Below are positions 5,100-32,405 of a DNA stretch of 64,000 nt, one piece after another; position 1 is the first letter of the stretch; each line of letters starts with the position of its first letter. Below the pieces are notes generated by a model that saw only the letters and a program-made list of their open reading frames with translations, searched no databases and was not told the DNA's origin. Location: positions 3,224,001 through 3,288,000 of the forward strand of contig NZ_VFPG01000001.1 of assembly GCF_006716565.1 (NCBI RefSeq), given 5' to 3'. A program made the position numbers and the translations under genes. The DNA is from Nocardia bhagyanarayanae (GTDB lineage Bacteria; Actinomycetota; Actinomycetes; Mycobacteriales; Mycobacteriaceae).

Positions 5100-5127
5100 G
5101 TCGACGCAACGTATTGGAGTTAGATCT

Positions 5128-5295: not shown

Positions 5296-6332
5296 GCAAC
5301 GGGCGCAGGACCATCGCCTGCTTCCTGGTCGGCCTCGGCGCGCTGCTGCTCGTGGCAGCGGTCATGATTCCCAGCTACACCGTCGGCAAGGTGGCCAAGA
5401 CGCCGCTCGACTTGCGGATCACCACGATCGCCAAGAACGTACCCGGCGAGGAAAGCCTTGTGCTGGACTCGAAGTCGCTCACCTCGCCCGAGGGTTCGGC
5501 CAAGGTCGACACCAATGTGCCGATCGTCTCGCAGCGTTTCCTCACCGTCGAAGAGCCGTCCGACGCCGACCAGATGACGGTGCAGGCGGGCCAGACGCTG
5601 CGTCGGGACGACCGCGAGGGCGACACCGGTCTGCTCACCGCCTCGATCGACCGCGTCACCATCGACCGCAAGACGGGCGAGCCGATCCCGGTGTCCCCCA
5701 ACGGTTCCATCGCCGTCTCCGTCGACAAGTCGGGCGCCTCGGTGGCCGACCCGTCGCAGCGCGCCGGTCTGCAGTACCGCTTCCCGATCGGCACCGAGAA
5801 GAAGTCCTACCCCTACTTCGATCTCAACGCACGCGCCACCTACGACATCCAGTTCGTCGAGGAGTCCGAGATCAACGGCGTGCCGGTCTATCACTTCCGG
5901 CAGACCATCCCGGTCACGAACATGTGGGAAGTCGTGCAGGCGCCGACCAACAAGCTCACCCTCCCCGCCGTCAAGTGGGGCCTCGAGGGTGAGGAGCCGG
6001 TCACGATGACCCGCTTCTACACCAATACCCGCGACGTGTGGGTCGAGCCGAAGACCGGCGCGGTTCTCAAAGGCGGCGAGCAGATCCACCTGTTCTACGG
6101 TCGCAGCGCCCAGCAGGTAGACGTCACCGCCCTCAAGTCCCACCTCGTCTTCGACGAGAAGACCATCGAGTCCCAGCTGGCCGTCACCCAGGAGAGCCTC
6201 GACAGGCTCACCCTCTTCGGCCAAACCCTCCCCATCGCCCTGGGCATCCTGGGCGGCATCGCCCTCATCGCAGGCATCGTCCTCGGTGTCCTGAGCAGTG
6301 GATCCCGAGGCCGCCGAGCCGAAAGGTTCTAG
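5292..6332 (+). CDS. DUF3068 (PorA-family) membrane-anchored envelope protein
   Basis: A 346-residue protein with an N-terminal membrane segment (about 8-28), a large beta-rich outer domain and a second membrane segment near the C-terminus (LPIALGILGGIALIAGIVLGVL, about 310-332). This two-anchor layout, a length near 350 and motifs such as YPYFDLNARATYDIQF and RFYTNTRDVWVEPKTG are typical of DUF3068. That family is specific to mycolate-containing actinobacteria and has been named after PorA channel proteins; a channel role here is not shown. It is coupled by a 4-base overlap to the DUF2613 gene. Its stop codon overlaps the stop of the convergent MAB_1171c-type gene (TAG/CTA at 6329-6332). Confidence 0.85.
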   Translation: MSNGRRTIACFLVGLGALLLVAAVMIPSYTVGKVAKTPLDLRITTIAKNVPGEESLVLDSKSLTSPEGSAKVDTNVPIVSQRFLTVEEPSDADQMTVQAGQTLRRDDREGDTGLLTASIDRVTIDRKTGEPIPVSPNGSIAVSVDKSGASVADPSQRAGLQYRFPIGTEKKSYPYFDLNARATYDIQFVEESEINGVPVYHFRQTIPVTNMWEVVQAPTNKLTLPAVKWGLEGEEPVTMTRFYTNTRDVWVEPKTGAVLKGGEQIHLFYGRSAQQVDVTALKSHLVFDEKTIESQLAVTQESLDRLTLFGQTLPIALGILGGIALIAGIVLGVLSSGSRGRRAERF

Positions 6333-7579
6333 CGAACCCTGTGAACAACTCCTCGGCCTCCCGTGTCCCGCACCGGGAGGCCGAGGTGTTTGCCGTTCCG
6401 GACGGTCGGCAGGCCGGCGGTCCGGGTCAGGCCGCGAGCGTGCGGCCAGGCCTTCGCGAGTGCGAGTAACTGGCGCAACTCCGCGGTGAGATCCCTTGCG
6501 CCCGGCTGTACTTGGTACCGGGGCGGCAACCGGCGCGCGCTCGGGGGGTGCCCGGCAGCTTTGGTGGCAACGGCCTCGGCGATGCGACGGGTCTGGATAT
6601 GTGGGTCACCGCTGGCGCCGGCCAGATCGTCGGGGCTGTCGCTGTAGCGCTTCAGATGGAGCAAGCAGTCGCGGATCTCGACCGTCATGCGGTGTAGACG
6701 GATGGCCGGATCTGTTCGGCCGTTGTGGTCGCGTCGCGTCTCCAGGACGACTTCGGGTACAGCTGCCGTGAGATCGGCCCACATCGGCCGCAGGCGGCGG
6801 CAGTATCGGCCGGTGCGGTCCCATCCCATGTGGGTGAGCAGGGTGCTGATCAGCGGCACGGCGACCATAGCGGGAACGGCGATGGCCGAGATAAGGAAGC
6901 CGCTCCATCCTTTCCAGTGCATCTCGGGAGCGAATGACGGTCGGCCCGTCACGACACTGATGACGGTCTCGAGCGGGTATACGACCGCTACGAATCCCAG
7001 GCCAAGCGTGCTGCACACGCTTGCCGTGTAAAGTGCACGTTCCCGCCAAGTCGTGTGGCCTGCGGTGCGAATCTCGCGCACACTTACCCAGCCGAGGAGC
7101 AGGGCCGTAGCGCCGAGCGGCAGGGCGAACGCGACCCAGACCACGACAGCGGGCCAGCCCAATGTCTGGTCGATCAACTGGTCGGCGCGGCGGGCAGGCG
7201 TCCCCGCGATCAGAATGACGGTGGTAACGGTGATCGTGACGAGGTAGTAACGCCACTGCCTGTGCCACGCCTGTGCGGGATCGGCGCCTGCCCACAGCTT
7301 GGCGACACCGTAGACATGGGAGACGGTCAACACGGTTGCTCCCAACGAGAGCTGTCCCGTGCCGTTCACCACGTCGCTGTCGTCGCCCGGCAGCAGCCTG
7401 GCCAGTGACTGCTGCAGCCATGCCTCCCGCAACAGGTGTTCGGCGAGAGTGGCGGCGAGCCCACGGTTGATGAGCCTGTCGACGATGCTGTCCCGCAACA
7501 GCCAGCACCGACCGGCGAGCACCAACGCGATACCTGCTAGGACGGGCCAGGTGATCAGACCCGGAACCGGGGAGGTCAT
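6329..7579 (-). CDS. MAB_1171c-type multi-pass membrane protein (putative transporter)
   Basis: A 416-residue protein with about seven membrane helices in the first 260 residues (for example LITWPVLAGIALVLAG, YYLVTITVTTVILIAG, AVVVWVAFALPLGATALLLG, and FLISAIAVPAMVAVPLIS) and a soluble C-terminal half with the motif RLRPMWADLTAAVPEV. This layout and that motif match the family annotated MAB_1171c putative transporter (DUF6545-type C-terminus) in mycobacteria and nocardiae. No transported substrate is known. I start at ATG 7579, one base after the stop of the protease gene, because the longer frame merely reads through that gene. The last 17 codons coincide with a terminator hairpin for the opposite strand. 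Confidence 0.72.
   Translation of the reverse strand: MTSPVPGLITWPVLAGIALVLAGRCWLLRDSIVDRLINRGLAATLAEHLLREAWLQQSLARLLPGDDSDVVNGTGQLSLGATVLTVSHVYGVAKLWAGADPAQAWHRQWRYYLVTITVTTVILIAGTPARRADQLIDQTLGWPAVVVWVAFALPLGATALLLGWVSVREIRTAGHTTWRERALYTASVCSTLGLGFVAVVYPLETVISVVTGRPSFAPEMHWKGWSGFLISAIAVPAMVAVPLISTLLTHMGWDRTGRYCRRLRPMWADLTAAVPEVVLETRRDHNGRTDPAIRLHRMTVEIRDCLLHLKRYSDSPDDLAGASGDPHIQTRRIAEAVATKAAGHPPSARRLPPRYQVQPGARDLTAELRQLLALAKAWPHARGLTRTAGLPTVRNGKHLGLPVRDTGGRGVVHRVR
6351..6386 (+). terminator. Stem-loop terminator for the DUF3068 gene, embedded in the opposing coding sequence
   Basis: Perfect 12-base arms (6351-6362 and 6375-6386) around a 12-base loop, 18 bases after the DUF3068 stop. The hairpin lies wholly inside the last codons of the convergent minus-strand gene. 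No long T-run follows, as is common in actinobacteria. Confidence 0.65.
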
Positions 7580-7580
7580 C

Positions 7581-8093
7581 TCATCGATGCCGGTTTCGGA
7601 AGAACGTCGACCGGAACCGGCTCGGCGATCGCTTCGGCAACATCGCTTCGACCAGCAGCAGGTCGGCGAAGGTTTCGGCGGCGCGCTCGCGCTCACTGCC
7701 GTAGTCTCGGCGGCCAAGTACGCTGCGGATGGATTCCAGCGACAGCGAGGGCATCAACTCGCTCAACAGCAGATCAACCCCGGTGTCACCGGGACCGCTC
7801 GCAGTCTCTCCGTGACCGAGCAGCATGTGACCGATCTCGTGGGCGATGATGTGATCGGCATGCCATTCGGTGTCGGCGCCGTACATGATCACATCGTCGG
7901 CTTCCCGGGCAATCCACAGGCCACTTCCGGTGCCGCATCCGTTCCCCGAGAGCGCGCCGACGTCGATCGGGCACAACGTGATCGGCCGTCCCCGGTACTC
8001 GGCCACCCGCGCGACGTATTCCGTTGTGTCCCAGGGGTGGGGGATCGGTACCAGGCGACTCAGCTCCTCGAACCGCGCGGTGAGATCCTCCAT
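7581..8093 (-). CDS. ImmA/IrrE-family metallopeptidase
   Basis: A protein of about 170 residues with the zinc metalloprotease signature HIIAHEIGHMLLGH (HEIGH at about 85-89) and a downstream ETFADLLL helix supplying the third zinc ligand. In known systems ImmA/IrrE proteins cleave or control helix-turn-helix repressors. Two ATGs are close together (8099 and 8093); 8093 is better spaced from GAGGG. The gene ends one base before the MAB_1171c-type gene, so the two form an operon. Such pairs are usually preceded by an XRE-type repressor gene; I find no intact one in the 600 bases upstream. Confidence 0.8.
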   Translation of the reverse strand: MEDLTARFEELSRLVPIPHPWDTTEYVARVAEYRGRPITLCPIDVGALSGNGCGTGSGLWIAREADDVIMYGADTEWHADHIIAHEIGHMLLGHGETASGPGDTGVDLLLSELMPSLSLESIRSVLGRRDYGSERERAAETFADLLLVEAMLPKRSPSRFRSTFFRNRHR

Positions 8094-8703
8094 TACCATT
8101 TCCCTCGTTGTTCGTGTGACCTGTGCCGATGTCGTGGTGATCGTAATCGCCTGCGTGGCAGGTTGCCGGACAGTCTATTCGCGGGCGAGCTTCGACAGAC
8201 TCGGCCGAGGGTGTTCCTGTCCGCATCGAGCAGGCGGGATGGCAGCCCATCCGCCACGCGTCGGCAAAGTATCGGCCACCCGGGCGGTTCGGCAGTTTCA
8301 TGTCTGGCGCTCGCGGGTGAGTGATGCCCCGCCGTAGACGGGCTGATCGGTGGCTACCAACCGGCATGTGTCTCAGGGTGGACACGTTTGCGAAAATGGT
8401 TCGAGAGGTAACCGGACGGTATTCGGTGGCGTGCCTGTCCTCGTTCATGGTGCCGTAACGTTCTCCTGCGGCCCCAAGCGCCGCTCGCAAAATCCTGGCG
8501 TACCGCCGCCGCTGTCATTTCGAGTCTCTCGACGAGTCGTGATCCGCCGTGCAGCAAACTATTTCGCCGGTGCCGCGGCGATTCAGCACGTTGCGGCCGT
8601 GCGGTGGCGGTGCTACGGTCCTCATTATTGAGGCGGGCCCCCGCGGCGAGTCATTGCTGATATCGCAGCGAAGGGAATTTACGCATCGATCGGGGGAATC
8701 GAG
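8094..8703. other. About 610-bp intergenic region between divergent protease and MmpL operons
   Basis: It separates the minus-strand protease operon from the large lipid operon and must hold both promoters. Short frames occur on the minus strand (8354-8557, 67 codons) but none shows a convincing domain. The last 100 bases before the MmpL gene are less GC-rich, as expected of a promoter. No clear palindromic operator was found. Confidence 0.4.
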
Positions 8704-10869
8704 TTGCAGAAGCGCGCTATCCGGGACACATACGGGAAACGATCGATTTCCCATCGGTGGTCCGAAATCGTGGTTGCGCGACGGTATTCCATCGTCGCGG
8801 CCGGCGTAGTGTTCACGCTTCTCTCCGGCCTCTGGGGTATCGGAGTGTTCGATCGGCTCAATCTTGCCGGGTACACGGTGCCGGGAAGCCAGTCGAGTGT
8901 CGCCGATGAACTGATCGATGAACACCTCGGACGCCGAACCCCTGATGTCGTAGTCCATTACGCCGTCGCGGACGGGCGGAAAATCGCCGATGTTTCGGAA
9001 GAAATTCTGCACAGACTGAACGCTTTGGATCAGAGCCTGCTGGCGCAGCCGATCGATTCTTACTGGACATCGGACCCCATCCGTCGCTCCGCGTTCATTT
9101 CGGAGGACCGCACCGAAGCGTTGGCCGTCCTCACACTGACCGGTGACGACAGCCAGCGCCTGAAGAACTTCGAACAGATTCGCGATGCACTCTCCGTGCC
9201 AGGGATCGAGACGAAGTTCTCGGGGTACAGCGCCGTAACGGAGGCGTACAACTCGGAATCCGAGCGCGACCTGATACTCACCGAGTCGATAGCACTTCCG
9301 GTGACCTTGCTGTTTCTCGTCTTCATCTTCGGCGGTCTCGTCGCGGCGAGCATTCCGGTGGTCATCGGGGTGCTTGCGATCGTCTCCTCCCTCGGTGCGC
9401 TACGTTTCATCTCCGAATTCACCGAAGTGAGCTCGTTCGCCGTCAACACGGCCTCCCTGATCGGTCTCGGCATGGCGATCGACTACGGCCTGTTCACGGT
9501 CAGCAGGTTCCGCGAGGAGATGGCGGCGACCGGAAGCACCGATGACGCTGTCCGCCGCACCGTGCAGACGGCCTGCCGCACGGTGTTGTTCTCCGGACTC
9601 GTACTCGTCGCCGCATTCCTGGGCATGCTGGTCTTCCCGTTGTCGGCGATGCGGTCGCTGGGCTTCGGTGCGATGTCGGCGGTCGGGCTCGCCGCTGTGC
9701 TGTCGGTGACGGTCGTCCCCGCTGTCCTGGCCATACTCGGCGAGCGGATCAATGCCTTGCCCTTGCGTTTCCGGGGGGCGGATCGCGGCGAGGAACGTGC
9801 TATACGATTCTGGGCGCGCTTCGGGGCGGGCGTGATTCGCCGTCCCGGCCTGCTGTCCACAGGGATCATCGCCGTGCTGCTGCTGTTCGCTGCCCCGGTG
9901 TTCGGCATCGGGTTCTCGAACATCGACAGCTCGGGGCTCCCCGAAGGCAACCCGACGCGCGTCGCGCAAGAAGCGATCGTCCAGAACTTTCCGAATGCCA
10001 CCAATGGCGTCGACCTGATCGTGCGGGATGCCGGGGGCGGCCAGCCGGACGCCGCGACGCTCCAAGAGCTGATGACGACAACCGGGCGCACCGAGGGCGT
10101 CCGCTTCGCGCTCGTGACGGACCGCGGTCCGGACTTCGCCGTGGTCCACGCGATCTTGGCGGATCCCGATTTCACCACGCCCGCATTGGAAACGGTGCGC
10201 AGACTGCGCGCGCTCGAAACGCCACCGAGTATCACGCTGTTGGTGGGCGGTGAGAACGCGATCAGCGCGGACAGCTACGACGCGATCATCGCCGGCTTCC
10301 CCAAAATGGCGGCGGCGATGGCGGCAGCCATCTTGGTGATGATGTTCCTCGCGTTTCGATCCGTGTTGCTGCCGATCAAGGCCGTGCTGATGTCCGGATT
10401 GAGCCTCGCGGCCAGCCTCGGCATCCTCACCTGGATATTCCAGGACGGGTACGGCGCCGCGTGGCTGGGTGTCACGCCAGGTCCACTGCCGGTGGCCGGA
10501 GTGGTGATCGTAGTGGCCACGGTGTTCGGGCTCTCGACCGACTACGAGGTGTTCTTGATATCGCGGATGGTCGAGGCGCGCGCGGCGGGCTCCGACACGA
10601 GAGGCGCGGTGCTGGAAGGGGTCGCGGGAACTGGGCGGGTGGTGACGGCGGCGGCGGCCATGCTGATCATCGTTTCCGGAGCGGCAGCGCTCTCCGGCCT
10701 GATGCTGGTGAAGCTCGTCGGTCTCGGCATCCTGATTTCGGTCCTCATCGACGCCACTCTCGTGCGCATGGTTCTGGTTCCGGCGCTGGTCGCGCTGATG
10801 GGCGAGGCGAACTGGTGGTCTCCCTGGCGACTCCCTGCCGTCGAACCGGCCCCGGAACCCGTCCGATAG
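8704..10869 (+). CDS. MmpL-family RND lipid exporter
   Basis: A 721-residue inner-membrane transporter of the MMPL branch of the RND superfamily, which moves lipids to the cell envelope using the proton gradient. Two repeats are visible: a single helix (about 29-47), a periplasmic loop, then five helices (about 190-345), and the same again (about 385-700). Each repeat has the Asp-Tyr proton-relay pair of this family: MAIDYGLF (D260-Y261) and LSTDYEVF (D613-Y614). It lacks the long C-terminal tail of MmpL3. The start is TTG at 8704 after a GGGGGAA stretch; no ATG is available before the first helix. It heads the operon with the FAAL-PKS and NRPS, so it probably exports their product. No MmpS partner gene is present. 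Confidence 0.9.
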   Translation: MQKRAIRDTYGKRSISHRWSEIVVARRYSIVAAGVVFTLLSGLWGIGVFDRLNLAGYTVPGSQSSVADELIDEHLGRRTPDVVVHYAVADGRKIADVSEEILHRLNALDQSLLAQPIDSYWTSDPIRRSAFISEDRTEALAVLTLTGDDSQRLKNFEQIRDALSVPGIETKFSGYSAVTEAYNSESERDLILTESIALPVTLLFLVFIFGGLVAASIPVVIGVLAIVSSLGALRFISEFTEVSSFAVNTASLIGLGMAIDYGLFTVSRFREEMAATGSTDDAVRRTVQTACRTVLFSGLVLVAAFLGMLVFPLSAMRSLGFGAMSAVGLAAVLSVTVVPAVLAILGERINALPLRFRGADRGEERAIRFWARFGAGVIRRPGLLSTGIIAVLLLFAAPVFGIGFSNIDSSGLPEGNPTRVAQEAIVQNFPNATNGVDLIVRDAGGGQPDAATLQELMTTTGRTEGVRFALVTDRGPDFAVVHAILADPDFTTPALETVRRLRALETPPSITLLVGGENAISADSYDAIIAGFPKMAAAMAAAILVMMFLAFRSVLLPIKAVLMSGLSLAASLGILTWIFQDGYGAAWLGVTPGPLPVAGVVIVVATVFGLSTDYEVFLISRMVEARAAGSDTRGAVLEGVAGTGRVVTAAAAMLIIVSGAAALSGLMLVKLVGLGILISVLIDATLVRMVLVPALVALMGEANWWSPWRLPAVEPAPEPVR

Positions 10870-10884
10870 CAGTCAGGAGCAGCG

Positions 10885-11325
10885 ATGGCGACGGATTTCG
10901 TCAGCGGTTCGATGGTATTGGCGGCCCCGGTCGAGCTCGTTTTCGAGTACGTCAGCGATTACGACCACATACCGGAATGGGTGGCCGGAATCTCGGCTTG
11001 CCGCCGGGAACCCGGCGCGCCGCAAGACTTCACGGTCGACATCTCGGTGGGCGCGGTCACGCACTCCGTTTCGTTCACGACCGCGACGTCGATACCGAAC
11101 CGTTCGATCGTGCTCACCGCGCTCGGCCGGTACGAAGCGAGCGTGGACATCGCGTTCGAATCCGCGGGTCCGCGAGGGTGCAACGTCACGACGGAAGTGC
11201 GTTATCCGGTGGAGGAGGGTCTATTCTATCGTCCCGTCAACAAGATGGGCAAATTGATTGCGACAAAGCTGCTCGAAAGAACCGGACGGAATCTCGCGGA
11301 GCGCATCATCGGATCATCGGGTTGA
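10885..11325 (+). CDS. SRPBCC-fold protein (START-like cyclase or lipid-binding)
   Basis: A 146-residue protein starting with SGSMVLAAPVELVFEYVSDYDHIPEWV, the usual opening of the SRPBCC ligand-binding fold: a first strand, then a helix with Asp/Tyr and a trailing Trp. It ends with the long amphipathic helix that closes the pocket (KMGKLIATKLLERTGRNLAE). Members include polyketide cyclases, aromatases and lipid carriers; no catalytic residue can be assigned. The start follows CAGGAGC, 15 bases after the MmpL stop, and the gene reads on towards the SDR and PKS. It may cyclise or carry the lipid made by this operon. Confidence 0.78.
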   Translation: MATDFVSGSMVLAAPVELVFEYVSDYDHIPEWVAGISACRREPGAPQDFTVDISVGAVTHSVSFTTATSIPNRSIVLTALGRYEASVDIAFESAGPRGCNVTTEVRYPVEEGLFYRPVNKMGKLIATKLLERTGRNLAERIIGSSG

Positions 11326-11384
11326 GCAGGTAGTTTTCGGAACAGTAAGACGCCGGCTGGGGAGCCGCCGTTCAGGGAGGGGAA

Positions 11385-12179
11385 ATGAGAATTGAAAACC
11401 GTCGAGTACTACTCACCGGGGCTTCCGGCGGGCTGGGACGTGCCATCGCCTGCGAGATGTCTCGCCGAGGTGCGTATCTGATCCTCACCGGCCGCAACAA
11501 GACCGCGCTGGAAGATACCGCGCGAATGTGTTCGGGCGAAATCATCGTAGCCGACCTCGCGGAACCGGAAGCCCCGGCGAAGCTCGCCGAAGCGGCCGGG
11601 CGAATCGACATACTCGTCGCGAATGCCGGCCTTCCTGGTAGTGGTCTGCTCACCGACCTTTCGGTGTCGGATATAGACCGTGCGATCGCGGTGAATCTCC
11701 GATCGCACATGGTCCTCGCTCGTCAGGTGATCGAGCAGTCGCGCGAGCGCCGAAGTGGCCACCTGGTCTTCGTTTCGTCGCTGTCCGGAAAGACCGCAGC
11801 GCCGAGATCGTCGGTGTACAACGCTACGAAATTCGGCCTTCGGGGATTCGGTCTGGCGCTGCGCGAGGAACTCCGATCCGATGGCGTCGGGGTATCGACA
11901 ATCTTTCCCGGATTCATTCGGGACGCCGGTATGTTCGCCGACTCCGGACCCATCCGACTACCGAGATTCGTGGGAACGTCCAGCCCGGAAGACGTCGCAG
12001 ACGCCGTCGTCCGTGCCGTGCGGAAGAACATCTGCGAGATCGACGTGGCGCCGTTCGGGATGCGAGTCGGCTCGCGTTTCGCGCCGATCGCACCGAGTTT
12101 GTCGGCGGCGGTCCAGCGATGGTTCGGCGCCGATCGACTGGTCGCCGATTTGGCGGCCGGGCAGCTGAACAAAAGGTAA
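11385..12179 (+). CDS. Short-chain dehydrogenase/reductase
   Basis: A 264-residue classical SDR: Rossmann motif TGASGGLG (about 11-18), NAG motif VANAGLPG (about 81), catalytic Ser in FVSSLSGK and the Tyr-x-x-x-Lys pair in SVYNATKFG (about 146-150). The start follows GGGAGGGGAAATG. It lies between the SRPBCC gene (59-base gap) and the FAAL-PKS (114-base gap) on the same strand. A reasonable role is reduction of a keto group left by the PKS or by the C-terminal KAS III condensation; the true substrate is unknown. Confidence 0.85.
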   Translation: MRIENRRVLLTGASGGLGRAIACEMSRRGAYLILTGRNKTALEDTARMCSGEIIVADLAEPEAPAKLAEAAGRIDILVANAGLPGSGLLTDLSVSDIDRAIAVNLRSHMVLARQVIEQSRERRSGHLVFVSSLSGKTAAPRSSVYNATKFGLRGFGLALREELRSDGVGVSTIFPGFIRDAGMFADSGPIRLPRFVGTSSPEDVADAVVRAVRKNICEIDVAPFGMRVGSRFAPIAPSLSAAVQRWFGADRLVADLAAGQLNKR

Positions 12180-12293
12180 TTTCCGTATTCACTTGCGGAA
12201 TCGGACATTCGTACTCCGATGTGCCGAGGTGGTCACATCGACTTCACGCGCCTGCCGTAGGCCGCGCTCACCAACACTGATCGAGCTGATGTA

Positions 12294-20815
<8,522 letters not shown>

Positions 20816-20819
<4 letters not shown>

Positions 20820-23800
20820 ACGCCAGACCGGATACGACCGGGCTCAGCGCCGACGAGAAACGCGAACTGCTGAGAGAACTTCTGCGGCGGCGAGCACGAC
20901 AGGACACCGAACGCGATCTGTCGCACGGTGAGCGCGGCCTCTGGCTGCATTCGCGCATCGCTCCCGACAGCTCCTCCTACAACCTGCTGTACGCGGGTCG
21001 GATCCATGGCAGCCTGGACCGCGAGAGACTCGGGGCCGCGCTCACCGCCCTCGCGACCAGGCACGAACCGCTGCGGACGGTCTACAGGGAGACGCCCGAC
21101 GGACCGGTCGCGTACCAGAAGACCGACGCGAACGTTCCACTGCACACCGTGGACGCGTCGACGTGGCATTCCCAGCGACTCGACCGGTGGCTCGACGATC
21201 GGCTCGCGCGGCCGATCGATTTGGCGAACGGGCCGCTGTTGGAGGCGACTGTGCTGTCGCTCGGCCCGGAGGAGCACATGCTCGTTCTTTCGATGGCCCA
21301 CATCGCTGTGGACTTCTGGTCGTTCGACATCTTGATCGCCGAGCTCGCCGCGCTGTACATCGATCCAGCGAACGCGGTCGCACCTGCGGACCGAAGCTAC
21401 GGCGACTACGTGCGCTGGCAGCAGAACCTGCTGAATGGCCCTCGAGGCCAGGCTCTTCGGGAGTACTGGGTGAATCGGCTGGCGGGCGCGCCACCACGAC
21501 TCGATCTTCCGGGACGGCGGCCCCGTCCCGCGACACAGACCTTCGCCGGGCGCATGCACGCCTTCGAGATAGACGAAGAACGGACTGCGGCGCTGCGTCA
21601 GCTGGCGAAGACCGAGGGTGTCACTCTCCAGATCTCGATCCTTGCGGCTTTCGTGGCGTTGCTGCATCGCTACTCGGGAAGCGACGACATCGTCGTCGGA
21701 TCGCCGATCGCGGGCCGCGGCATGCCGGGTGCGGAGCGGATGATCGGATACTTCGTGAACGCGGTCGCTCTGCGATCGGATCTGGCGAGCGATCCCAGCT
21801 ACAGCGAGTTGCTTCAGCAGGTCCGCCGCACAGTGCTGGAAGCGGTCGAGCATCAGGACTACCCGTTCACGGTGCTTGCCGAACAGTTGGTTCCGGTGCG
21901 TGATCCTGCGCACTCGCCGATCTTCCAGGTCTTCTTCGCCTGGGAGACCTCCCGCGCGTCGACCGGCGCTCTGCTGGCCGAGTTGCCCGACGATTCGCTC
22001 CGGCTGGAGACGTCCACCTTGCGCCAGGGCGGCGCGCCGCTGGATTTGATGCTCATGGTCGCCGAGCGCGAGCGGACACTGTCCGCGGTGCTGCAATACA
22101 ACACCGACTTGTTCGACGCGTCGATGATCCGCCGTCTCGCCGACCACTTCGCGGTGCTCCTGGACGCCGCGATCGCCACGCCACACCGGGCGATCGGGAG
22201 TCTTCCGATCTTGACACCAGCGGAGGTGTTGGACATGGCGCGCTGGAACGCAACCCGAATCGACGAGTTCCAGGACCACTGCTTGCCACGATTGATCCGC
22301 GATCAGGTGCTGCGATCGCCGCATGCCACCGCAGTGTCCTTCCGCGGCAAGCACGTCAGCTATCGCGATCTCCAGCGGAGAGCCGAGCATCTCGCCGGTC
22401 TGCTTCAGTCGGCGGGCGTCCGACCCGGGGAGGCGGTCGGCATCGCTTTGCAACGCTCGGAGATGTCGGTTATCGGCGCTTACGCGGCGCTCCTCGCCGG
22501 CGGCGCGTTCTTGCCGGTCGATCCACGTCATCCGGCGCAGCGATTGCGCACCATCGCTTCGGAGGCTCGGGTCGTGGTGTGGATCACCGATGACGCGAGC
22601 AGGGACCGGTTACCCAGCGATGCGCGGACGGTGAACGCCGAGGGCGCCCAGGAGGAACCGACCGGCTTCGATCCGGCCGCCGCGTCGCCCCGTCCCGGAG
22701 ATGCCGCCTACGTGATGTTCACTTCGGGCTCCACCGGGATACCGAAGGGCGTCGTGAACACTCATCGGGGGATTTGCAATCGCCTGCTGTGGATGCAACG
22801 CGAATATCCACTGTCGGCACAGGATTCGGTACTGCACAAAACTCCGGCCACGTTCGATGTCTCGGTATGGGAACTGTTCTGGCCGCTGGTGGCGGGCGCG
22901 CGTGTGGTGGTCGCGGAACCCGACGGTCACCTGGACGCCGGATACCTCGCCGAGACGATCGTCGAAAACGAAGTCACCGTCGTGCATTTCGTGCCGTCGA
23001 TGTTGCGCATCTTCCTTGCGGACATGCGCGCGCGGCAGTGCACGGGATTGCGCCGGGTGATCACCAGCGGTGAAGCGCTGACAGCGGATCTGCGCGACGA
23101 ATTCTTCGGCCTGCTTCCGGCGAGCCTGCACAACCTGTACGGGCCGACGGAAGCCGCCATCGACGTCACGTATTACGACTGTCGCCGCGACGACCCGGAC
23201 CCGGTCGTGCCGATCGGGCGACCCATCGCGAACACGCGCATCCATCTGCTGGATCGGCACCGGAACCCGGTGCCGATCGGCGTCACCGGTGAGCTGTACA
23301 TCGGCGGAATCGGCGTCGCCAAGGGCTATGTGAGCAGACCCGAACTGACCGCCGAGCGCTTCGTCGAAGACCCGTGGGCCGCCGAGCCCGGTGTTCTGCT
23401 GTACAGGACCGGCGACCTCGCGCGGTTCCGCCCGGACGGCGCCATCGAGTACCTCGGGCGCGCGGACCAGCAGGTGAAGATCCGTGGTGTTCGCATCGAG
23501 CCCGCCGAAGTCGAGGCCGCTCTGTCGGCGAGTTCGTCGGTGCGCGAGGCGGTGGTCGTCGCCGACGGCGACGATCCGAGCTCCCGGCGTCTGGTGGCGT
23601 ACGTGGTGCCCGCGGACCTGGCGGCGCTACCGACGGACGGGGATCTGCGTGCCCTGCTGCGCGAACGTCTTCCCGATGCGATGGTTCCCGCCCACTTCGT
23701 GCCGCTGGATCGGATTCCGACGACGCCCAGCGGCAAGCGGGACTACCGCGCGTTGCCAGAACCTCCCACCGAGCGTCCCGGCATCGACGACCGGTACCAG

Positions 23801-26104
23801 CCGCCGGAAGGACCGATTCAGATCGCTCTCGCGGGACTGTGGCAGAAGGCGCTGCGGGTGGACCGCATCGGTGCCGACGACGACTTCTTCGAACTCGGCG
23901 GCTCGTCGACGCAGATCATGGAGATCTGCACCGGGGCGGGCGAACTCGGGATCACCGTGAGTCCCGAGACGCTGTTCCGGCATCGGACGATCAGCGCGAT
24001 CGCTCGGTCGGTCGAGGATGGAGAGGCTCCGCGTCTGCACGAAACCAGTAGCGGCACTGCACTTGTCGACTCCTATACCGCGCCCGCTGGTGCGACCGCC
24101 GTCGATCGGCCCGTGCCGAGGGCAGGCAACACCGTGATCGAAAGCATTGGCGTCTATCTCCCCGACAACGTCGTCTCGACCGAGGAGATACTGGCCGGAT
24201 GCGCGCGGCCGGTCGGGATTCCGCTGGCGCAGCTCACCGGAATCCGAACCCGCCGCCGGGTCGGGCCGGGCGAATTCTCGATCGACTTGGCGTTACGGGC
24301 CGCCCATCGGTGCTTGTCTCTGTCCCGCCACACCGCAGCCGACATCGACCTGTTGATCTGCACCAACATCTCGAAGATCGAGGGACCCGACCATCGGTTC
24401 GTCTACGAGCCGAGCAGTTCGATGCGGCTGCGGACCCTGCTCGCGCTCGACAACGCGCTGAGCTTCGACATCTCGAACGCGTGCGCCGGGATGTTCACCG
24501 GAATCTCGGTGGCCGACGGCTTCCTGCGTACCGGACGCGTCCGCAGGGCCATGGTCGTCAGCGGTGAGTACATCTCGCACATCATCGACACCGCCCAGCG
24601 AGAAATCGTGGACCTTCTCGACGACCGTCTGGCCTGCCTGACGGTCGGCGATGCGGGGGCCGCGCTCATTCTGGAACGGGGAACCGACGGGCACACGGGA
24701 TTTCATGATCTTCGGCTGCGCAGCCTCAGCAAGTACAGCGACTTGTGCATCGGCAGACGGACCGACCAGCCGCACGGCGGCGCGATCATGCATACGAAGG
24801 CGGTGGAGCAGACCGCGGTCGCCGTACGGAAATCCATACCGTTCGCGGCAGGCATGCTGAGCAGGCACGGCTGGTCTGCCGAGTCCGTGGACCACATCCT
24901 GGTGCACCAGACCTCCAAGGCGTCCATCGATGACGCGTCCGCGACGATCAACCGTCTCGCGGGCAGGCCCGTCGCCCATCCGGAGAAGGTCGTGTACAAC
25001 CTCGCCGAACGTGGCAACACCGCTTCGACAACGCATTTCGTCGCGATCCATGATCTGGTGCGGAAGGGCAGCATCCGGGCCGGTGATCGAATGCTCTTCG
25101 GGGTCACCGGTTCCGGGCAGACCGTTGGGGCGGCCCTGTACACCTTCGACGACCTTCCGAACCGGATGCGCGGCGGCGACGTGTCGGCGCCGCCCGCGTC
25201 GAGCGAGTACGTCGCCCCGAAGCCGCGACGAGTGCGAATCGAGGCGATCGCGATCGCGACGGCACGGGACGGCGACACGGCTGTCGATCTGGCGGTCGAC
25301 GCCGGCTCGGCATGCCTCGCGCAATCGACCGTCGAGTCGTCCGATATCGGTTTGCTCCTGTACGCGGGCATGCTGCGCGACGGCCATATGATCGAGCCGG
25401 CCACCGCGACCTTCGTCGCGAGCAAGTTGCACATCAACGACGACCCGGCGGAACCGTTCGACGGCGGCACACTCGCCTTCGACGTGATGGACGGCGCCAC
25501 CGGATTTCTTGCGGCGTGCCATATCGCGGCGACGGCGATCGGCGCGGGAGACACCCCGGCGGCGCTGGTTGTCGCAGCCGAAGCGGACCCGGACGTGCCC
25601 GGCAGGCTCGCGGCGACTCGCGGGATCGTGCACGGCGGGTCTGCGCTGCTGCTGACCGGATCGGAGGACGGCACGGGCTTCACCGATTTCCATTTCGCCA
25701 CCTATCCATCCGACATCGGTGCGTTGTCCTCTTATAACCGAATGCACGGTGCCGAGGGTCTCCAGGTTTCGCGGGTTCCGGCGCTCGAGGATGTCTACCT
25801 CGCGCGTATCGGCGAGACGGTGGCGGAATTCCTGGCCGGGCTCGAATTGTCGCTGTCGGATATCGGAGTCGTTTGTGGCCCGCAGATATCGACGAAGTTC
25901 CTCGACCGCCTGGCTGAGCGCATAGACGTTCCGCGCTCCCGTGTCGTCGATGTCACCGTCGATGGCGTCGACCTGTTCACTTCCTCGATCCCGGCAGCGT
26001 TGCGACACTGCCGGGACAGTGGGTTCGCCGTCGATGGTGACGTCGGACTGATCGTCGCCGTCGGTGCGGGAATCCGCGTGGGGTGTGCGATCTACCGATT
26101 CTGA
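20816..26104 (+). CDS. NRPS C-A-PCP fused to two KAS III-like domains
   Basis: A 1762-residue protein translated from a GTG overlapping the PKS stop. Order: a short helical N-terminus suited to docking (about 10-30), condensation domain (about 35-470; the HHxxxDG motif reads AHIAVDF, keeping the catalytic second His H162 and D166), adenylation domain (about 490-985; FTSGSTGIPKG, K974), PCP (S1031 in ELGGSSTQ), then KAS III-like domain 1 (about 1105-1455) with C1223, H1364 and N1401. Domain 2 (about 1490-1762) has the same fold but Ala at the Cys position (about 1561) and no matching His or Asn. Specificity positions read D-V-W-H-I-S-L-I-D, nearly the EntF serine code (DVWHFSLVD), so L-serine is predicted. 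There is no TE or reductase: the KAS III pair probably releases or extends the acyl-seryl chain. Confidence 0.92.
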
Positions 26105-26163: not shown

Positions 26164-26276
26164 TCGTGACGATTGCCCGCGGAAGCACTTCGCGCGTGGT
26201 GGAGTGGGCGTACCATGGCTAAAACTGGACGACTGTCCATGAATTCGTGGACCTCGATCACCTTTGTGAGCGCGTT

Positions 26277-27689
26277 ATGGCTGACCGTGTACACGCCTTT
26301 ACCGATGACGTCCTCGCCGAGCACGATGCCGTCGCGCTGGCGGCTTTGGTCCGGTCCGGTGAGGTGAGTCCCGAGGAGGTGGCGCGGGCGGCGATTGCGC
26401 GGGCCGAGCGAGTGGAGCCGGTGTTGCATGCCGTCGAGCTGGATTGTTACGAGCGGCCGCGGTTCACGGGGGAGCGGTCGGGCGTGTGGTTCGGGGTGCC
26501 GACGTTTCTGAAGGACAATGCCGATGTGGCGGGGATGCCGACGCGCCACGGCAGTGTCGCGTTCCGGCCGCGGCCCGCCGCGCGTGACGACGCGTACACG
26601 CGGCAGTTCCTGAGTACCGGGGTGACGCTGCTGGGCAAGACGCGGTTGCCGGAGTTCGGGCTCAATCCGACGACCGAATTCCAGAACGCGGAGCCGACGG
26701 TCAACCCGTGGAATCCGGAGTACTCGGTGGGTGGATCGTCCGGTGGCGGTGCGGCGCTCGTCGCCGCGGGGGTGGTGCCGGTGGCGCACGGGAACGACGG
26801 CGGGGGATCGTTGCGTATCCCGGCCGCGTGCGCGGGCCTCGTCGCGCTGAAGCCGAGCCGGTTCCGGCATCTGGACAACGTCCAAGCCCGCCAACTACCG
26901 ATCAAGCTCATCTCCGAGGGTGTGCTGACCAGGACGGTGCGCGATACCGCGGCGTATACCGCTGCGGCCGAGCGCTATTGGCGTAACCCGAAGCTGACTC
27001 CGATCGGGTTTGTCGAGGGTCCGACGGATCGGCAGTTGCGCATCGGTGTGCTGCTCGGTTCGGGAACCGGTGACGAGCCGGACGCCGAGACCCGCGCCGC
27101 CGTCGAGCAGGCGGCGCGTTTGCTGGAGAAGGCCGGACATCACGTGGAAGCATTGGGCGTGCCGTTCGCCCGGCGGCTCGCCGACGACTTCCTGCTGTAC
27201 TGGGCGTTGCTCGCGCACATGGCGGCGCTGACCGGCAAGATCCTGCACGGTCGCACGTTCGACCGTTCCGCGCTCGACGACCTGACCAAGGGATTGGGCC
27301 GATACCACCGGGAACGTTTCGTCGGCAGCGCGGGCGCGCTGTACCGGCTGCGCCGGGCGAGGCAGAGTTACGACCGCGTCTTCACCGACTACGACCTCGT
27401 GCTCTCGCCGGTGACCACCCACACCGTCCCGCCGATCGGCTACCTGAGTCCGACGGTGCCCGCCGACCAACTCATCGATCGCTTGTTCCGATACGCGGGC
27501 TACACACCGATCAACAACATCACCGGATCACCAGCTATCTCACTACCTACTGGCCTCGGCCCCAACGGACTGCCCATCGGCGTAATGTGCAGCGCCGCGT
27601 ACGGAGACGAGCGCACCCTCCTCGAGATCGGCTACCTCCTCGAAGCGGAACACCCTTTCCCGCGAATAACCGCGGACCTGCGCGACTGA
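26277..27689 (+). CDS. Amidase (amidase-signature family)
   Basis: A protein of about 470 residues with the amidase signature: FLKDNADVAG (catalytic Lys), and the Gly/Ser-rich VGGSSGGGAALVAAGVVPVAHGNDGGGSLRIPA with the cis-Ser and the nucleophile Ser in RIPA. These enzymes hydrolyse carboxamides such as aryl or aliphatic amides; the C-terminal SPAISLPTGLGPNGLPIGV is also typical. I start at ATG 26277 (MADRVHAF), which fits the family's N-terminus; an in-frame ATG at 26247 has no better support. It starts about 110 bases after the lipid-operon terminator, so it is probably a separate unit. It converges on the P450 gene. Confidence 0.88.
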   Translation: MADRVHAFTDDVLAEHDAVALAALVRSGEVSPEEVARAAIARAERVEPVLHAVELDCYERPRFTGERSGVWFGVPTFLKDNADVAGMPTRHGSVAFRPRPAARDDAYTRQFLSTGVTLLGKTRLPEFGLNPTTEFQNAEPTVNPWNPEYSVGGSSGGGAALVAAGVVPVAHGNDGGGSLRIPAACAGLVALKPSRFRHLDNVQARQLPIKLISEGVLTRTVRDTAAYTAAAERYWRNPKLTPIGFVEGPTDRQLRIGVLLGSGTGDEPDAETRAAVEQAARLLEKAGHHVEALGVPFARRLADDFLLYWALLAHMAALTGKILHGRTFDRSALDDLTKGLGRYHRERFVGSAGALYRLRRARQSYDRVFTDYDLVLSPVTTHTVPPIGYLSPTVPADQLIDRLFRYAGYTPINNITGSPAISLPTGLGPNGLPIGVMCSAAYGDERTLLEIGYLLEAEHPFPRITADLRD

Positions 27690-27753: not shown

Positions 27754-28983
27754 TCACCAGCGCACTGGGAAGGATTCCAGGTCGTTTTGGGTGAGGACGG
27801 GGAGGTTGTGGATTTCCTCGGCGGGGACCGCCAAGGTGAGGGTGGGGAAGCGGGTGAGGAGGGCGGGGAGGGCGATGGTGGCTTCGAGGCGGGCGAGGGC
27901 GGCGCCGGGGCAGATGTGCGGGCCGTGGCCGAAGGCCGTGTGGCGGTGGGAGGTTGGGCGGGTGGGGTCGAAAGTGTCGGCGTCGGGGCCGTGCAGGGTG
28001 GTGTCGCGGCCGATGGCGCGGTAGGAGAGGACGACGCCGTCCCCCTCGGGGATGACGGTGTCGGCGACGGGGATGTCCTCGGTGGCGAAGCGCATCAGCA
28101 GGTGGGTGACGGGGGTGTCCCAGCGGAGGGTTTCCTCGATGGCCGCTTTCCATTCGAGGTCGCCGTCGCGGAGGCGGCGTAGGTGCTCGGGGTGAGTGAG
28201 CAAGGCGCGCAAGGTATTCAGGAGCAGGCCGACGGTGGTTTCGTGGCCCGCGGCGACGAGCGCCTTCAGGTTGCCGACGACCTCTTCTTCGGTGAGCGGT
28301 TCGCCGCCGTCGTCGGCGAGGATGAAGGCGCTGGTGAGGTCGTCGGTGGGCGAGGCGGTCTTCTCGCGCACCAAATCGGTGAAGTAGGAGTCCAATTCGT
28401 CGATGACGCGCAGCCGCTCGTCCTGCGGAGTGAGCAGGGAGAAGAACGCCTTGTACCAGGCGAGCAGCATCGGGTGATCGGCGCGATCGACGCCCATCAG
28501 TTCGCTGATGACGCGCATCGGCAGCGGATAGGCGAAGAGCGCTTTCAGGTCGACGACCGACCCGTCGCGGCCCGCCGCGTCGAGATCGTCGAGCAGTTCG
28601 TCGGTGAGCCGTTCGATGGCGGGGCGCAGCGCGTCCAGGCGGCGTGCGGTCAAGGCCTGGGTGGTCTTGATCCGCAAGCGCCGGTGTTCGGCGCCGTCCA
28701 CCGTGAACATCGAACGACCGGTGTCGATCATGCCGATGAGCGGCCACTGCCTGGTCACCGTTCCGGAGGTCCACAGCGACCACGCATCGATGTCCTTGAC
28801 CAAGCGCGGGTCGGTGAGGAGTTTGCGGGCCACCGCGTGTTCCGTGACGCTCCAGGCGGGCACGCCGAGCAGCTCGATCCGAGCGAGCGGGCCCGCGGCT
28901 CGCAGTCGTTCGGTCTCACCGGCGAGATCACGTACCAGCGGATCGATGGATATCGCCGCGATGCGATGTTTCTCGTCGGTCAC
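27754..28983 (-). CDS. Cytochrome P450 monooxygenase (CYP105/107-like)
   Basis: A 409-residue soluble actinobacterial P450. Visible motifs: I-helix AAGHETTVGLL (about 245-255), K-helix EETLRWDTP (Glu-x-x-Arg), and the haem loop FGHGPHICPGA with C358 as the iron ligand. It starts with GTG at 28983 after GGAGG. Such enzymes hydroxylate small hydrophobic molecules, often secondary metabolites or drugs, and need separate ferredoxin partners, none of which is nearby. It stands alone, facing the amidase; its substrate cannot be read from sequence. Confidence 0.9.
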   Translation of the reverse strand: MTDEKHRIAAISIDPLVRDLAGETERLRAAGPLARIELLGVPAWSVTEHAVARKLLTDPRLVKDIDAWSLWTSGTVTRQWPLIGMIDTGRSMFTVDGAEHRRLRIKTTQALTARRLDALRPAIERLTDELLDDLDAAGRDGSVVDLKALFAYPLPMRVISELMGVDRADHPMLLAWYKAFFSLLTPQDERLRVIDELDSYFTDLVREKTASPTDDLTSAFILADDGGEPLTEEEVVGNLKALVAAGHETTVGLLLNTLRALLTHPEHLRRLRDGDLEWKAAIEETLRWDTPVTHLLMRFATEDIPVADTVIPEGDGVVLSYRAIGRDTTLHGPDADTFDPTRPTSHRHTAFGHGPHICPGAALARLEATIALPALLTRFPTLTLAVPAEEIHNLPVLTQNDLESFPVRW

Positions 28984-29282
28984 TGGGGTGCCTCCCTGCG
29001 CGGCCGAAGGCGACGATGTAGACAGCTACCTGCCCCCGCGCATCCCCCGGACTTCGAAAAGAACTGTCGTGAACACGCTTTCGTGCCCACCACAGAGGCT
29101 ACCGCCGGAGCCGCCGAACTGCACCTGAATGCTGTCGCCCCCGATTCTGGGGTACGGACCGCGACCGGCGATGCGGGAGAACGGCTTTCACCGCAGGCGG
29201 CATGACGTACGCCCCGCCCGGAGTGCGCTCGGCACCAGTGCGGCGGACGCTCCGCGATGCATGCGGGACGCGCGCCGCCCCA

Positions 29283-30299
29283 TCACAGGCGGACGGATGC
29301 GAGCGCGCGATCGGAGGACGTATCGGACTGACGCGCCGTCGTGCGCCTCCGCCGCGTGGGCGCGGTCAGGACGGCCAAGCATCCCGAGACGAGGGCGATG
29401 CCGACCCAACCGAGAACAGGCAGGCGTTCCCCGACGACCAGCACCGCCAGCACCGCCGCACCCGCCGGTTCCAGCAGCGACAGGGTGGTCGCCGTGCTCG
29501 CGGCGACATGCGCGAGCCCCCACCCGAACAGCACGTACCCGGCGAACATCGGCACCACCGCCATGTACGCGCCCACCGCGGCGTTACCCCACGAGCCGAC
29601 GAGAGGTCCGCCGGTGGTGATCAGGACGGGAACCAAACCCAGCCCGCCGAGGCCGAAGACGGCGCCCATTGCCGCGCGGGCGCCGATCCCGCCGGTGATC
29701 AGGCGATGGGCCGCCCAGGAGTACACCGCGTAGGTCGAAGCGGCGAGCAAACCGAGTCCGACGCCGAGTGCGGCGGCCCCGGCCGATTCCGGCCCCGCCG
29801 CGCGGCCGGTGCCGGTGGCTTCGGCCGCGCAGATCGACACCGTCCCCAGCAGGCCCAGTGCCGCGCCGAATCGCCAACGGCGCGTGAGCTTTCGCCGGTC
29901 GGCAACCCGCTCGAGCACGGCCGAGGCCAGCGGCGCCATGCCGACCGAGACCGCGGTGCCCACCGCCACCCCGGCCAGTCGCATCGAGCTGTAGAACGCC
30001 AAAGGGTAGACAGCCACCGAGACCGCGCCCACGAGCACGGTGCCACGCCGGTCGAGCAGTTGCCGCGCCTGGCGGGTGATCGGCCCAGCAGCGAGCAGCG
30101 CCTGTAGCAGGCCGCCGACACCCATGGCCATCGCGCCGATGGCCAGCGGTCCCACCTCGGGAGCGAAGCTCGCCGCGGTGCCGGTCGTGGCCCACAGCAA
30201 CGACGCCGCGAGCACGCACACCGCACCCACCCGCACCGATCCCCGCTCCCGAGCGACGGCACGGCCGACGCCCGGATGCGGCGCCCCGACGCGGTTCAC
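29283..30299 (-). CDS. EamA/DMT-superfamily transporter
   Basis: A 338-residue membrane protein with about ten hydrophobic helices in two five-helix repeats (for example VGAVCVLAASLLWATTGTAA at about 24-43 and AALGVGLGLLAASTYAVYSW at about 175-194), the layout of drug/metabolite exporters of the EamA type. The GTG start overlaps the TetR stop by four bases (GTGA), so it is translationally coupled to, and probably controlled by, that repressor. The likely role is efflux of a small molecule sensed by the regulator. The C-terminal tail is basic and Ser/Thr-rich. Confidence 0.88.
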   Translation of the reverse strand: MNRVGAPHPGVGRAVARERGSVRVGAVCVLAASLLWATTGTAASFAPEVGPLAIGAMAMGVGGLLQALLAAGPITRQARQLLDRRGTVLVGAVSVAVYPLAFYSSMRLAGVAVGTAVSVGMAPLASAVLERVADRRKLTRRWRFGAALGLLGTVSICAAEATGTGRAAGPESAGAAALGVGLGLLAASTYAVYSWAAHRLITGGIGARAAMGAVFGLGGLGLVPVLITTGGPLVGSWGNAAVGAYMAVVPMFAGYVLFGWGLAHVAASTATTLSLLEPAGAAVLAVLVVGERLPVLGWVGIALVSGCLAVLTAPTRRRRTTARQSDTSSDRALASVRL

Positions 30300-30988: not shown

Positions 30989-31651
30989 ATGGCGGATGAT
31001 CCGGACGAACGCGGCGTCATCCGGTTGCACCGGCACCCAGCGGCGAACGGGGCGGCACCGCCGTGCTCCACGTCCGACCACGGCCCGGCCGCCGAACGCA
31101 GCCGCTGGCTCGCGGACCTGCTCGCCGCCGTGGGCGACGGCGACCGGGAAGCGTTCACCGACTTCTACCGCGCGACCAGCCACCGCGTGTTCGGCCTCGC
31201 GATGCGCATCGCGCGCAGCAGGGCCGCGGCCGAGGAGATCACCCAGGAGGTGTATCTCCAGGCCTGGTCGACGGCCGCGACGTACGACCGCAACCGGGCC
31301 AGCCCGATCGGCTGGCTGATGATGCTCACGCACCGGCGCGCGGTCGACCGTGTCCGCGCCGAGCAGTCGACCGCCGACCGGGACATCGTGTACGGCCACA
31401 GCCACCTGGGCCGAGACCACGACATCGTCGCCGAGGAGGTCGGCCAGCGCCTCGACGAGCAATCCGTGCTCGATTGCCTGGGCACGCTCACGAGCATGCA
31501 GCGCGAAGCCCTCGCGCTGGCGTACTACAGCGGGCGCACCTACCGCGAGGTCGCCGACCAGCTGGACGTCCCGTTGCCCACCGTCAAAAGCCGCATCCGC
31601 GACGGACTGCGGCGACTCGCGACCTGCCTGACCGGAGGTGAATCCAGTTGA
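30989..31651 (+). CDS. sigK: ECF sigma factor, SigK family
   Basis: A 220-residue ECF sigma factor. Region 2 is FTDFYRATSHRVFGLAMRIARSRAAAEEITQEVYLQAW (about 52-90) and region 4 includes LTSMQREALALAYYSGRTYREVADQLDVPLPTVKSR (about 165-205). The long N-terminal extension and the partner gene match SigK, which in mycobacteria drives secreted antigen genes. The ATG at 30989 follows GGGAGATGG. The stop overlaps the TTG start of the anti-sigma gene (TTGA), so the two are coupled. Confidence 0.85.
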   Translation: MADDPDERGVIRLHRHPAANGAAPPCSTSDHGPAAERSRWLADLLAAVGDGDREAFTDFYRATSHRVFGLAMRIARSRAAAEEITQEVYLQAWSTAATYDRNRASPIGWLMMLTHRRAVDRVRAEQSTADRDIVYGHSHLGRDHDIVAEEVGQRLDEQSVLDCLGTLTSMQREALALAYYSGRTYREVADQLDVPLPTVKSRIRDGLRRLATCLTGGESS

Positions 31652-32367
31652 TCGACGCGGAGTCTCCCGACCCGGACCTGCTCGACCTGGCTTTCCCCTA
31701 TGCGATGGACGCCGTCAGCGACGGCGAGCGCGCGACCATCGACGATCGCGTCGACGCCGTGGACGCGGCCACGGCCGCCGCCTTCGACGACACCGTGCGC
31801 GGCGTCCGCGAGACGGTGGCGGCGATGACGGTGGTCGACAGCGTCGCGCCGCCCGCCGAACTGGAGGCGGTGATCCTGGCCGCGATCGACGGTCCCGCAG
31901 GCGGCGGCAGGCGCCGCACCGGCCCGCGATGGCTGGCGGCGGCCGCCGCGCTCGTCGTCGCGGTCGGCGTGGGGGTGGGCGCGGCGGTCTTCCTCGGCCG
32001 CGACACGGTCCAGCCAAGCCCCGACATCACGGCCCAGCTGGTACGGGAACAAGCCGACATCAGGACCCGGCCCGCGGCGGTCGAGGGCGGCGGGAGGCTG
32101 CTGGTGACCACCTCCGCGGAACTGGGCGCCGCGACGGTGATCTTCGACGGGGTGCCCGCACTCCAAGAGGGGCGGTCCTATCAGCTCTGGCTGGTGCCGC
32201 CGGAGGGTCCGCCGCGCTCGGTCGGGGTCCTCGCGCAGCCGCCGACCCCGGACGCGCCGTTCGTCACCCGGTTCCATCCCTCGGACGCCCTGGCGATGAC
32301 GATCGAACCGCCCGGCGGGTCGCCGCTGCCGACGTCGACACCGATCACCGCGCTCGCCCTCGGCTGA
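31648..32367 (+). CDS. rskA: Anti-sigma-K factor RskA
   Basis: A 239-residue membrane protein: a cytoplasmic sigma-binding part (DLLDLAFPYAMDAVSDGER, about 8-30), one membrane helix (about 92-115), and an extracytoplasmic domain with the RskA-type motif GRSYQLWLVPPEGPPRSVG (about 173-191). Family members hold SigK at the membrane and are cut by regulated proteolysis. TTG start, overlapping the sigma stop by four bases. It ends 38 bases before the convergent PhoD gene. Confidence 0.88.
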   Translation: MIDAESPDPDLLDLAFPYAMDAVSDGERATIDDRVDAVDAATAAAFDDTVRGVRETVAAMTVVDSVAPPAELEAVILAAIDGPAGGGRRRTGPRWLAAAAALVVAVGVGVGAAVFLGRDTVQPSPDITAQLVREQADIRTRPAAVEGGGRLLVTTSAELGAATVIFDGVPALQEGRSYQLWLVPPEGPPRSVGVLAQPPTPDAPFVTRFHPSDALAMTIEPPGGSPLPTSTPITALALG

Positions 32368-32405
32368 CCGGCGGCGGCCGCGATCTCCGATGGCACCGCT
32401 GAGGT

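Follow-up and report, generated by a model that had tools for sequence, protein, structure and literature searches.

Two condensing systems of the thiolase fold provide the best points of comparison for the element described here: LstA/LstB is the closest known system in residues and ancestry, and OleA is the closest in mechanism. In OleA (Xanthomonas campestris), which pairs two copies of one sequence that carries both Cys and Glu, the Glu of one subunit is described as working in the active site of the other (catalytic Glu117; PMC7064751). In lipstatin biosynthesis, LstA carries C128, H271 and N305, and the substitution E60A in LstB abolishes activity (PMC12141560). What distinguishes OleA and LstAB chemistry is a working Glu donated by the partner (PMC7064751, PMC12141560). 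The element is a single frame (20816-26104, + strand) in a 64,000-nucleotide stretch of Nocardia bhagyanarayanae DNA, here called the window (C1:3224001-3288000 of a genome in two contigs, 7.56 Mb). It encodes one nonribosomal peptide synthetase (NRPS) of 1762 amino acids (aa) with the Pfam domain order C-A-PCP-KASIII-KASIII, the first KAS III domain being predicted active and the second degenerate. From these sequence comparisons we think it fairly probable that an LstAB/OleA-type pair for head-to-head Claisen condensation has been fused to the end of the NRPS, where it would replace a thioesterase.

LstB reportedly lacks the Cys-His-Asn triad, and its Glu reportedly acts on the acyl-enzyme. 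Like LstA/LstB (Streptomyces toxytricini), the fused pair combines a large half carrying the Cys-His-Asn of an active enzyme with a triad-less small half carrying a catalytic-type Glu. A possible further parallel is a short-chain dehydrogenase/reductase (SDR), putatively of keto-reductase type, which directly follows the gene in 27/57 loci surveyed. Unlike LstA/LstB, which are two proteins acting on two acyl-CoAs, the pair shares one chain with C-A-PCP, so that one substrate is probably the PCP-bound acyl-amino acid; in addition, no beta-lactone synthetase was found beside the fused NRPS. In contrast to OleA, the Cys sits in one domain and the presumed working Glu in the other.

Domain layout and active-site residues

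The KAS-KAS part is matched by 450 proteins at E <= 1e-10. Counts for '120 relatives' refer to the best 120 of these 450, all of which contain the C, A and KAS III Pfam domains and most of which match the PCP model. As the initial annotation had described, the protein consists of C-A-PCP followed by two thiolase-fold domains (Pfam, sequence and fold searches), and no thioesterase or thioester reductase family is found in the NRPS or the adjoining polyketide synthase (PKS) at E <= 0.001 (Pfam). The condensation domain (aa 35-470, 20918-22225; Pfam and the relatives' alignment), the adenylation domain (aa 495-974, 22298-23737; Pfam) and the peptidyl carrier domain (aa 1005-1064, 23828-24007, motif LGGSS; Pfam) are followed by KAS III domain 1, of LstA/OleA type (24128-25153), and KAS III domain 2, of LstB type (25229-26101), all on the + strand. 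The condensation motif of the window protein (AHIAVDFWS, residues 161-169) has lost the first motif His, which is kept in 108/120 relatives; the second is kept in 117 (with 3 gaps). The motif reads DFW in 116/120, the usual form being DGW.

Domain 1 has the thiolase fold by sequence and by structure search. Its best sequence matches are FabH and PqsD; these and OleA are far stronger than ChlB3 (E 7e-5), and PqsC also matches (E 2e-14). FabH and PqsD are among its best fold matches, and PqsBC entries also appear in its fold search. Domain 2 has the same fold by sequence (E 2.5e-10) and by structure search with a model folded alone, its fold matches including the tetronate enzyme AbyA1. PqsBC entries are missing from the fold matches listed for domain 2, an absence that carries no weight. 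The domain searches uphold the KAS III identity first given to the C-terminal region for both domains.

The triad that had been recognised in domain 1, Cys1223/His1364/Asn1401, is correct and is invariant in 120/120 relatives as well as in 53/53 members of a second set, which takes in Planctomycetota, Pontibacter, Lewinella and one Acidobacteriota metagenome-assembled genome (MAG). In domain 2, BLASTP against domain 1 (23% identity) shows A1561, P1689 and D1719 in place of Cys, His and Asn, respectively. None of the 120 listed relatives has Cys at 1561, whereas 1689 is Pro in 119/120 and 1719 is Asp in every one. Only domain 1 has an active-site Cys, and the two fused domains are non-identical.

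Each domain also contains a Glu followed by Pro (E1198 in domain 1, Glu1527-Pro1528 in domain 2). The Glu is present in both domains in 120/120 relatives, and Glu and Pro together in 53/53 of the second set. BLASTP pairs E1527 with E1198, which itself falls on OleA position 117 (row 5vxf). The OleA stretch 'YLEPSTAS' (E117) also lines up with 'YMEPSFAS' in an LstA-like protein from the same Nocardia genome. Five aligned FabH-type rows have no Glu at this place. An AlphaFold model of residues 1085-1762 (pLDDT 87.6, pTM 0.92) gives scores compatible with a fixed placement of the two KAS III domains relative to each other.

PqsC/PqsB, which the initial annotation had offered as the closest parallel, shares the active/pseudo-enzyme pairing, and this part of the comparison stands. 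As the nearest model, PqsB/PqsC was demoted to an analogue and replaced by LstA/LstB because domain 2 carries a conserved catalytic-type Glu and is not simply degenerate. Unlike PqsC/PqsB, the window pair is placed with the LstA/LstB type by its Glu-Pro and by a tree (below), PqsB being neither in this tree nor aligned to domain 2.

Ancestry and distribution of the fused pair

Three unfused KAS III pairs are encoded elsewhere in the window's genome, two of them adjoining OleC-like and OleD-like genes. Domain 1 shares 36% identity with the large subunit of one unfused pair, and hhalign matches the domain 2 profile to that pair's LstB-like small subunit at 99.8%. The spacing of C124/H267/N301 in the unfused large subunit (143, 34) is identical to that of C128/H271/N305 in LstA. 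Glu occupies positions 57 and 56 in two unfused small subunits, and Glu-Pro is present in 48/48 aligned small-subunit rows, two of which are the same protein. Given the residue roles in LstA/LstB, this matching spacing and these Glu positions make E1527 (codon 25394-25396, + strand) the likeliest candidate, by analogy, for the working Glu of C1223, supplied by domain 2 across the pseudo-dimer as the proposed base.

The two LstA/LstB-like pairs with OleC-like and OleD-like neighbours are L009 (C1:4374000-4392000, at 4812-9785) and L010 (C1:4032000-4050000, at 7551-12240), a context that we take to be as expected for beta-lactone clusters of the nocardiolactone type. The third pair (L011, C1:5242000-5259000) lies at 7275-9412 on the minus strand. 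Its large subunit has Ala-Pro at the OleA Glu117-Pro place and its small subunit keeps Glu-Pro, which fits a working Glu that comes from the small subunit.

The tree, drawn with a midpoint root, has 43 rows (13 domain-1, 13 domain-2, 3 large-subunit, 11 small-subunit and 3 KAS III outgroup sequences) and was built without LstA, LstB and PqsB themselves. In it domain 1 joins the large subunits (99/97), domain 2 joins the small subunits (100/98) and the fused domain 1 copies form one group (98/95). This grouping fits a single fusion of an LstA/LstB-like pair that had already divided beforehand; together with the invariant Glu-Pro of domain 2, it is the reason why the pair looks lipstatin-type.

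The gene family is an orphan one spread over several phyla. The fused form is found in Nocardia, Mycobacterium/Mycolicibacter, Planctomycetota and one Acidobacteriota MAG, and the nearest named relatives among the matches listed are from Nocardia (58-67% identity over the KAS-KAS part). With strict cut-offs it occurs in 2/60 whole genomes and in 10/401 genomes of a family draw, the window's own included in both, and in its own genome alone in a phylum draw (1/296). We also surveyed the neighbourhoods of 57 loci, some of which are the same stretches as other loci drawn (for example, L063 = L037), so that the sets are not additive. Both KAS domains lie in one frame in 56/57. The search for the same domain order that had been suggested returned C-A-PCP-KAS-KAS complete in one frame at 49/57 loci; the other eight comprise cut contigs (L069, L080, L085), two loci whose frame is short or split (L081, L101), stand-alone pairs (L094, L100) and a distant match (L103). 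The architecture had been thought to belong to no described pathway. This holds for the matches listed in open-access full texts, among which there is no characterised synthetase with the order C-A-PCP-KASIII-KASIII; the 450 matches, with C, A and KAS III domains in all 120 listed, show that the architecture is not unique to the window.

The stand-alone KAS-KAS frames, which have no NRPS part, comprise 690 codons in Pontibacter (L094, 9932-12004) and 683 in Lewinella (L100, 9944-11995). Both adjoin a divergent FAAL-PKS and a phosphopantetheinyl transferase, and L094 also a P450. A minimal one-protein form, FAAL-ACP-C-A-PCP-KAS-KAS without a PKS module, is found in L086 (4403-12025), L091 (4382-12013) and P0027. 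At L044, frames beside the fused NRPS that might suggest a PKS in pieces have no Pfam match; FAAL, ACP, KS, AT and ACP matches lie on the strand opposite these frames, so the idea of a fragmented PKS there was dropped.

Proposed chemistry and rival explanations

The proposed maker and donor of the first acyl chain is a PKS of 2841 aa (12294-20819, + strand; FAAL-ACP-KS-AT-DH-ER-KR-ACP), whose end is overlapped by the NRPS start by 4 nt. Its FAAL, made up of an AMP-binding and a DIP2-like C-terminal part (Pfam), would activate a fatty acid. The single reducing module would then extend it, probably with methylmalonyl, the extender presumably indicated by the AT motif VASH. Judging from domain order and the A code, the C domain would join this chain to serine on the PCP; we read the ten-residue code DVWHISLIDK as serine, which agrees with the acyl-seryl thioester put forward initially as the likely substrate. 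By analogy with LstAB and OleA, the two KAS III domains would form a pseudo-heterodimer with one acyl group on Cys1223, and Glu1527 would take a proton from an alpha-carbon. The resulting carbanion would attack the second thioester with no CO2 lost beforehand. Of the two partners, the acyl-serine would more probably serve as electrophile and a cytosolic fatty acyl-CoA as nucleophile. Condensation itself would release the chain, so that a thioesterase would be unnecessary. The resulting beta-keto acid could lose CO2 to give a ketone (N-acyl-3-keto-sphinganine-like if the amino acid is Ser) or be reduced by the neighbouring SDR. The most likely product thus joins an N-acyl-serine to a second fatty acyl chain as a beta-keto acid, ketone or alcohol.

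The initial annotation had proposed either condensation with a second acyl unit or transfer to an alcohol. Condensation is now the likeliest reaction, and transfer is disfavoured since a conserved catalytic-type Glu in domain 2 favours a non-decarboxylative Claisen condensation. If the pair were nevertheless an acyltransferase like CerJ/ChlB3, it would take the N-acyl-seryl group off the PCP and pass it to an alcohol or amine without forming a C-C bond. KAS III folds that move acyl groups are known, domain 1 has its weak ChlB3 match and a glycosyltransferase lies next door in two relatives (L074 and L076), but the FabH, PqsD and OleA matches far exceed that to ChlB3, both domains have an invariant Glu of the OleA/LstB type, and domain 1 falls in the tree with LstA-type subunits, 2/3 of those sampled adjoining OleC-like and OleD-like genes. 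We regard acyl transfer as improbable. The Cys-His-Asn triad is also used by decarboxylating KAS III enzymes, and the FabH and PqsD matches of domain 1, by sequence and by fold, together with AbyA1 among the fold matches of domain 2, would suit the addition of a malonyl-derived unit to the acyl-aminoacyl thioester and subsequent cyclisation to a tetramate, pyrone or furanone-like product. This is unlikely in view of the five FabH-type rows without Glu at the Glu117 place and of the partner-supplied Glu that marks OleA/LstAB chemistry (PMC7064751, PMC12141560).

An LstAB-like pair might also work differently, either with the seryl unit as the nucleophile or with a product that stays a 2-alkyl-3-hydroxy acid or becomes a beta-lactone through an OleC encoded elsewhere, giving a serine-bearing lipid that resembles lipstatin or nocardiolactone. 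The two clusters with OleC-like and OleD-like genes in the same genome point this way, as do the extended SDRs with OleD/HpnA-type matches, below curated cut-offs, that follow the gene in many relatives. An N-acyl-amino thioester would, however, be a poor carbanion donor and no OleC match stands out near the fused genes (see below), which makes this variant rather unlikely.

Several observations weigh against the LstAB/OleA-type condensation that we prefer. E1198 of domain 1 is just as invariant as E1527. LstB Glu60 is matched by position only, to E57/E56 of the two unfused small subunits, and the fused domain 2 copies group by themselves at only 81/95 in the midpoint-rooted tree. In 30/57 loci, some of which stop at a contig end, no SDR was found directly downstream. 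There is no SDR match in the stretches read of the Nocardia relatives L037/L107 and L038/L108, and L063 has only a weak one (26%) about 8 kb off. No OleC-like match stands out in the 57 loci or in L037, L038, L107 and L108, OleC being the beta-lactone step of ole/lst-type pathways. Overall, what was first observed in the protein is confirmed; the suggested condensation is partly supported, being strengthened and given a better-founded mechanism.

Neighbouring genes and the possible lipid product

In 27/57 loci an SDR match starts 3-25 nt after the KAS pair. Of these SDRs, 26 are of the extended 3beta-HSD/epimerase type and match HpnA- and OleD-type models below the curated cut-offs of those models; one is of the classical type. 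Many of these loci are from closely related Mycolicibacter and are therefore not 27 independent cases; more distant examples are L082 (a MAG, 49% identity), L048 (31%) and L069 (classical type, 44%). The window's own SDR (11385-12179, + strand; classical type, TGASGGLG and YNATK), a candidate keto-reductase, sits 114 nt upstream of the PKS, not downstream of the NRPS, and has a homologue (44% identity) about 6 nt past the KAS pair in L069.

An MMPL transporter (8704-10869, + strand; MmpL3-like but under the cut-off of that model) is a candidate lipid exporter and may export the product. A homologue adjoins the NRPS in three relatives from Nocardia, namely L037 (identical to the L063 stretch), L038 and L047. 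An amidase-family enzyme is encoded 3' of the NRPS (26247-27689, + strand), and 20/57 loci have an amidase in the flanking DNA retrieved; the Nocardia relatives L037/L107 and L038/L108 carry MMPL, an alpha/beta hydrolase and amidase. The MMPL proteins, FtsX-type ABC transporters and glycosyltransferases encoded in different relatives are consistent with export of a lipid. In Mycobacterium persicum (L074, 12101-13372) and M. attenuatum (L076, 12085-13326) the gene after the KAS pair encodes a GT28-type glycosyltransferase, so the lipid may be glycosylated there. Elsewhere in the window, 65-1951 (+ strand) encodes PP-binding and thioesterase domains, probably the last part of a different synthase truncated at the window edge, and 5292-6332 (+ strand) a PorA-type porin (PF11271, E 3e-97). 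No Pfam match was obtained for frames 1848-2891, 2497-3717, 3722-4627, 7359-8324, 10461-11333, 28183-29205, 29202-30107 and 31638-32399.

The A-domain codes of the 120 relatives follow the pattern D-x-W-H-x-S-L in 68, a DAAH type in 36 and others in 16; eight Planctomycetota loci carry DILQLGMIWK. We take D-x-W-H-x-S-L to be Ser-like, DILQLGMIWK to be Gly-like and the codes of L082 and L101 to be Asn-like and Tyr-like, respectively. The chemistry must therefore work with more than one amino acid, and a ceramide is conceivable only for members with a Ser code. In these, ceramide-like lipids might, rather speculatively, arise independently of serine palmitoyltransferase: the NRPS would N-acylate serine, the LstAB-type pair would add an acyl chain and, after loss of CO2, an SDR would reduce the ketone. 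Reductases of this kind are described for 3-keto-sphinganine or oxidised ceramide, namely the SDR-like BT_0972 (PMC9278070) and CerR, described as an NDUFA9 homologue (PMC11087976). In SgaA/SgaB (Pseudomonas fluorescens) a PKS-made acyl chain is likewise joined to serine, giving 3-keto-sphinganine, but SgaB is described as a PLP-dependent serine palmitoyltransferase acting on free serine (PMC12134224), whereas here serine would be N-acylated first and a thiolase-fold pair would form the C-C bond. The aminotransferase-fold family PF00155 has 24 matches genome-wide and none inside the window; it is too broad to tell whether a serine palmitoyltransferase exists elsewhere in the genome. The ceramide product was not adopted as the main claim because the A code varies and the SDR is directly downstream in just 27/57 loci.

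Hydrolysis, cyclisation and reduction are the normal ways in which an NRPS chain is released. This assembly line instead appears to finish by forming a C-C bond with a second lipid, the base coming from a pseudo-enzyme domain of the same chain. No description of this mode of release is found among the matches listed in the open-access literature, and it would explain the orphan family. The fused pair would also offer a covalent, one-chain LstAB for structural work, and suggests an unrecognised route to two-tailed, possibly ceramide-like amino lipids. If the ceramide route is true, the order of sphingolipid assembly would be reversed in Nocardia and in those Mycobacterium/Mycolicibacter species with a Ser code, and relatives with Gly-, Asn- and Tyr-like codes would make amino-acid-swapped analogues. 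A ceramide-like product would mean that chemistry has a second way of arriving at a central membrane lipid.

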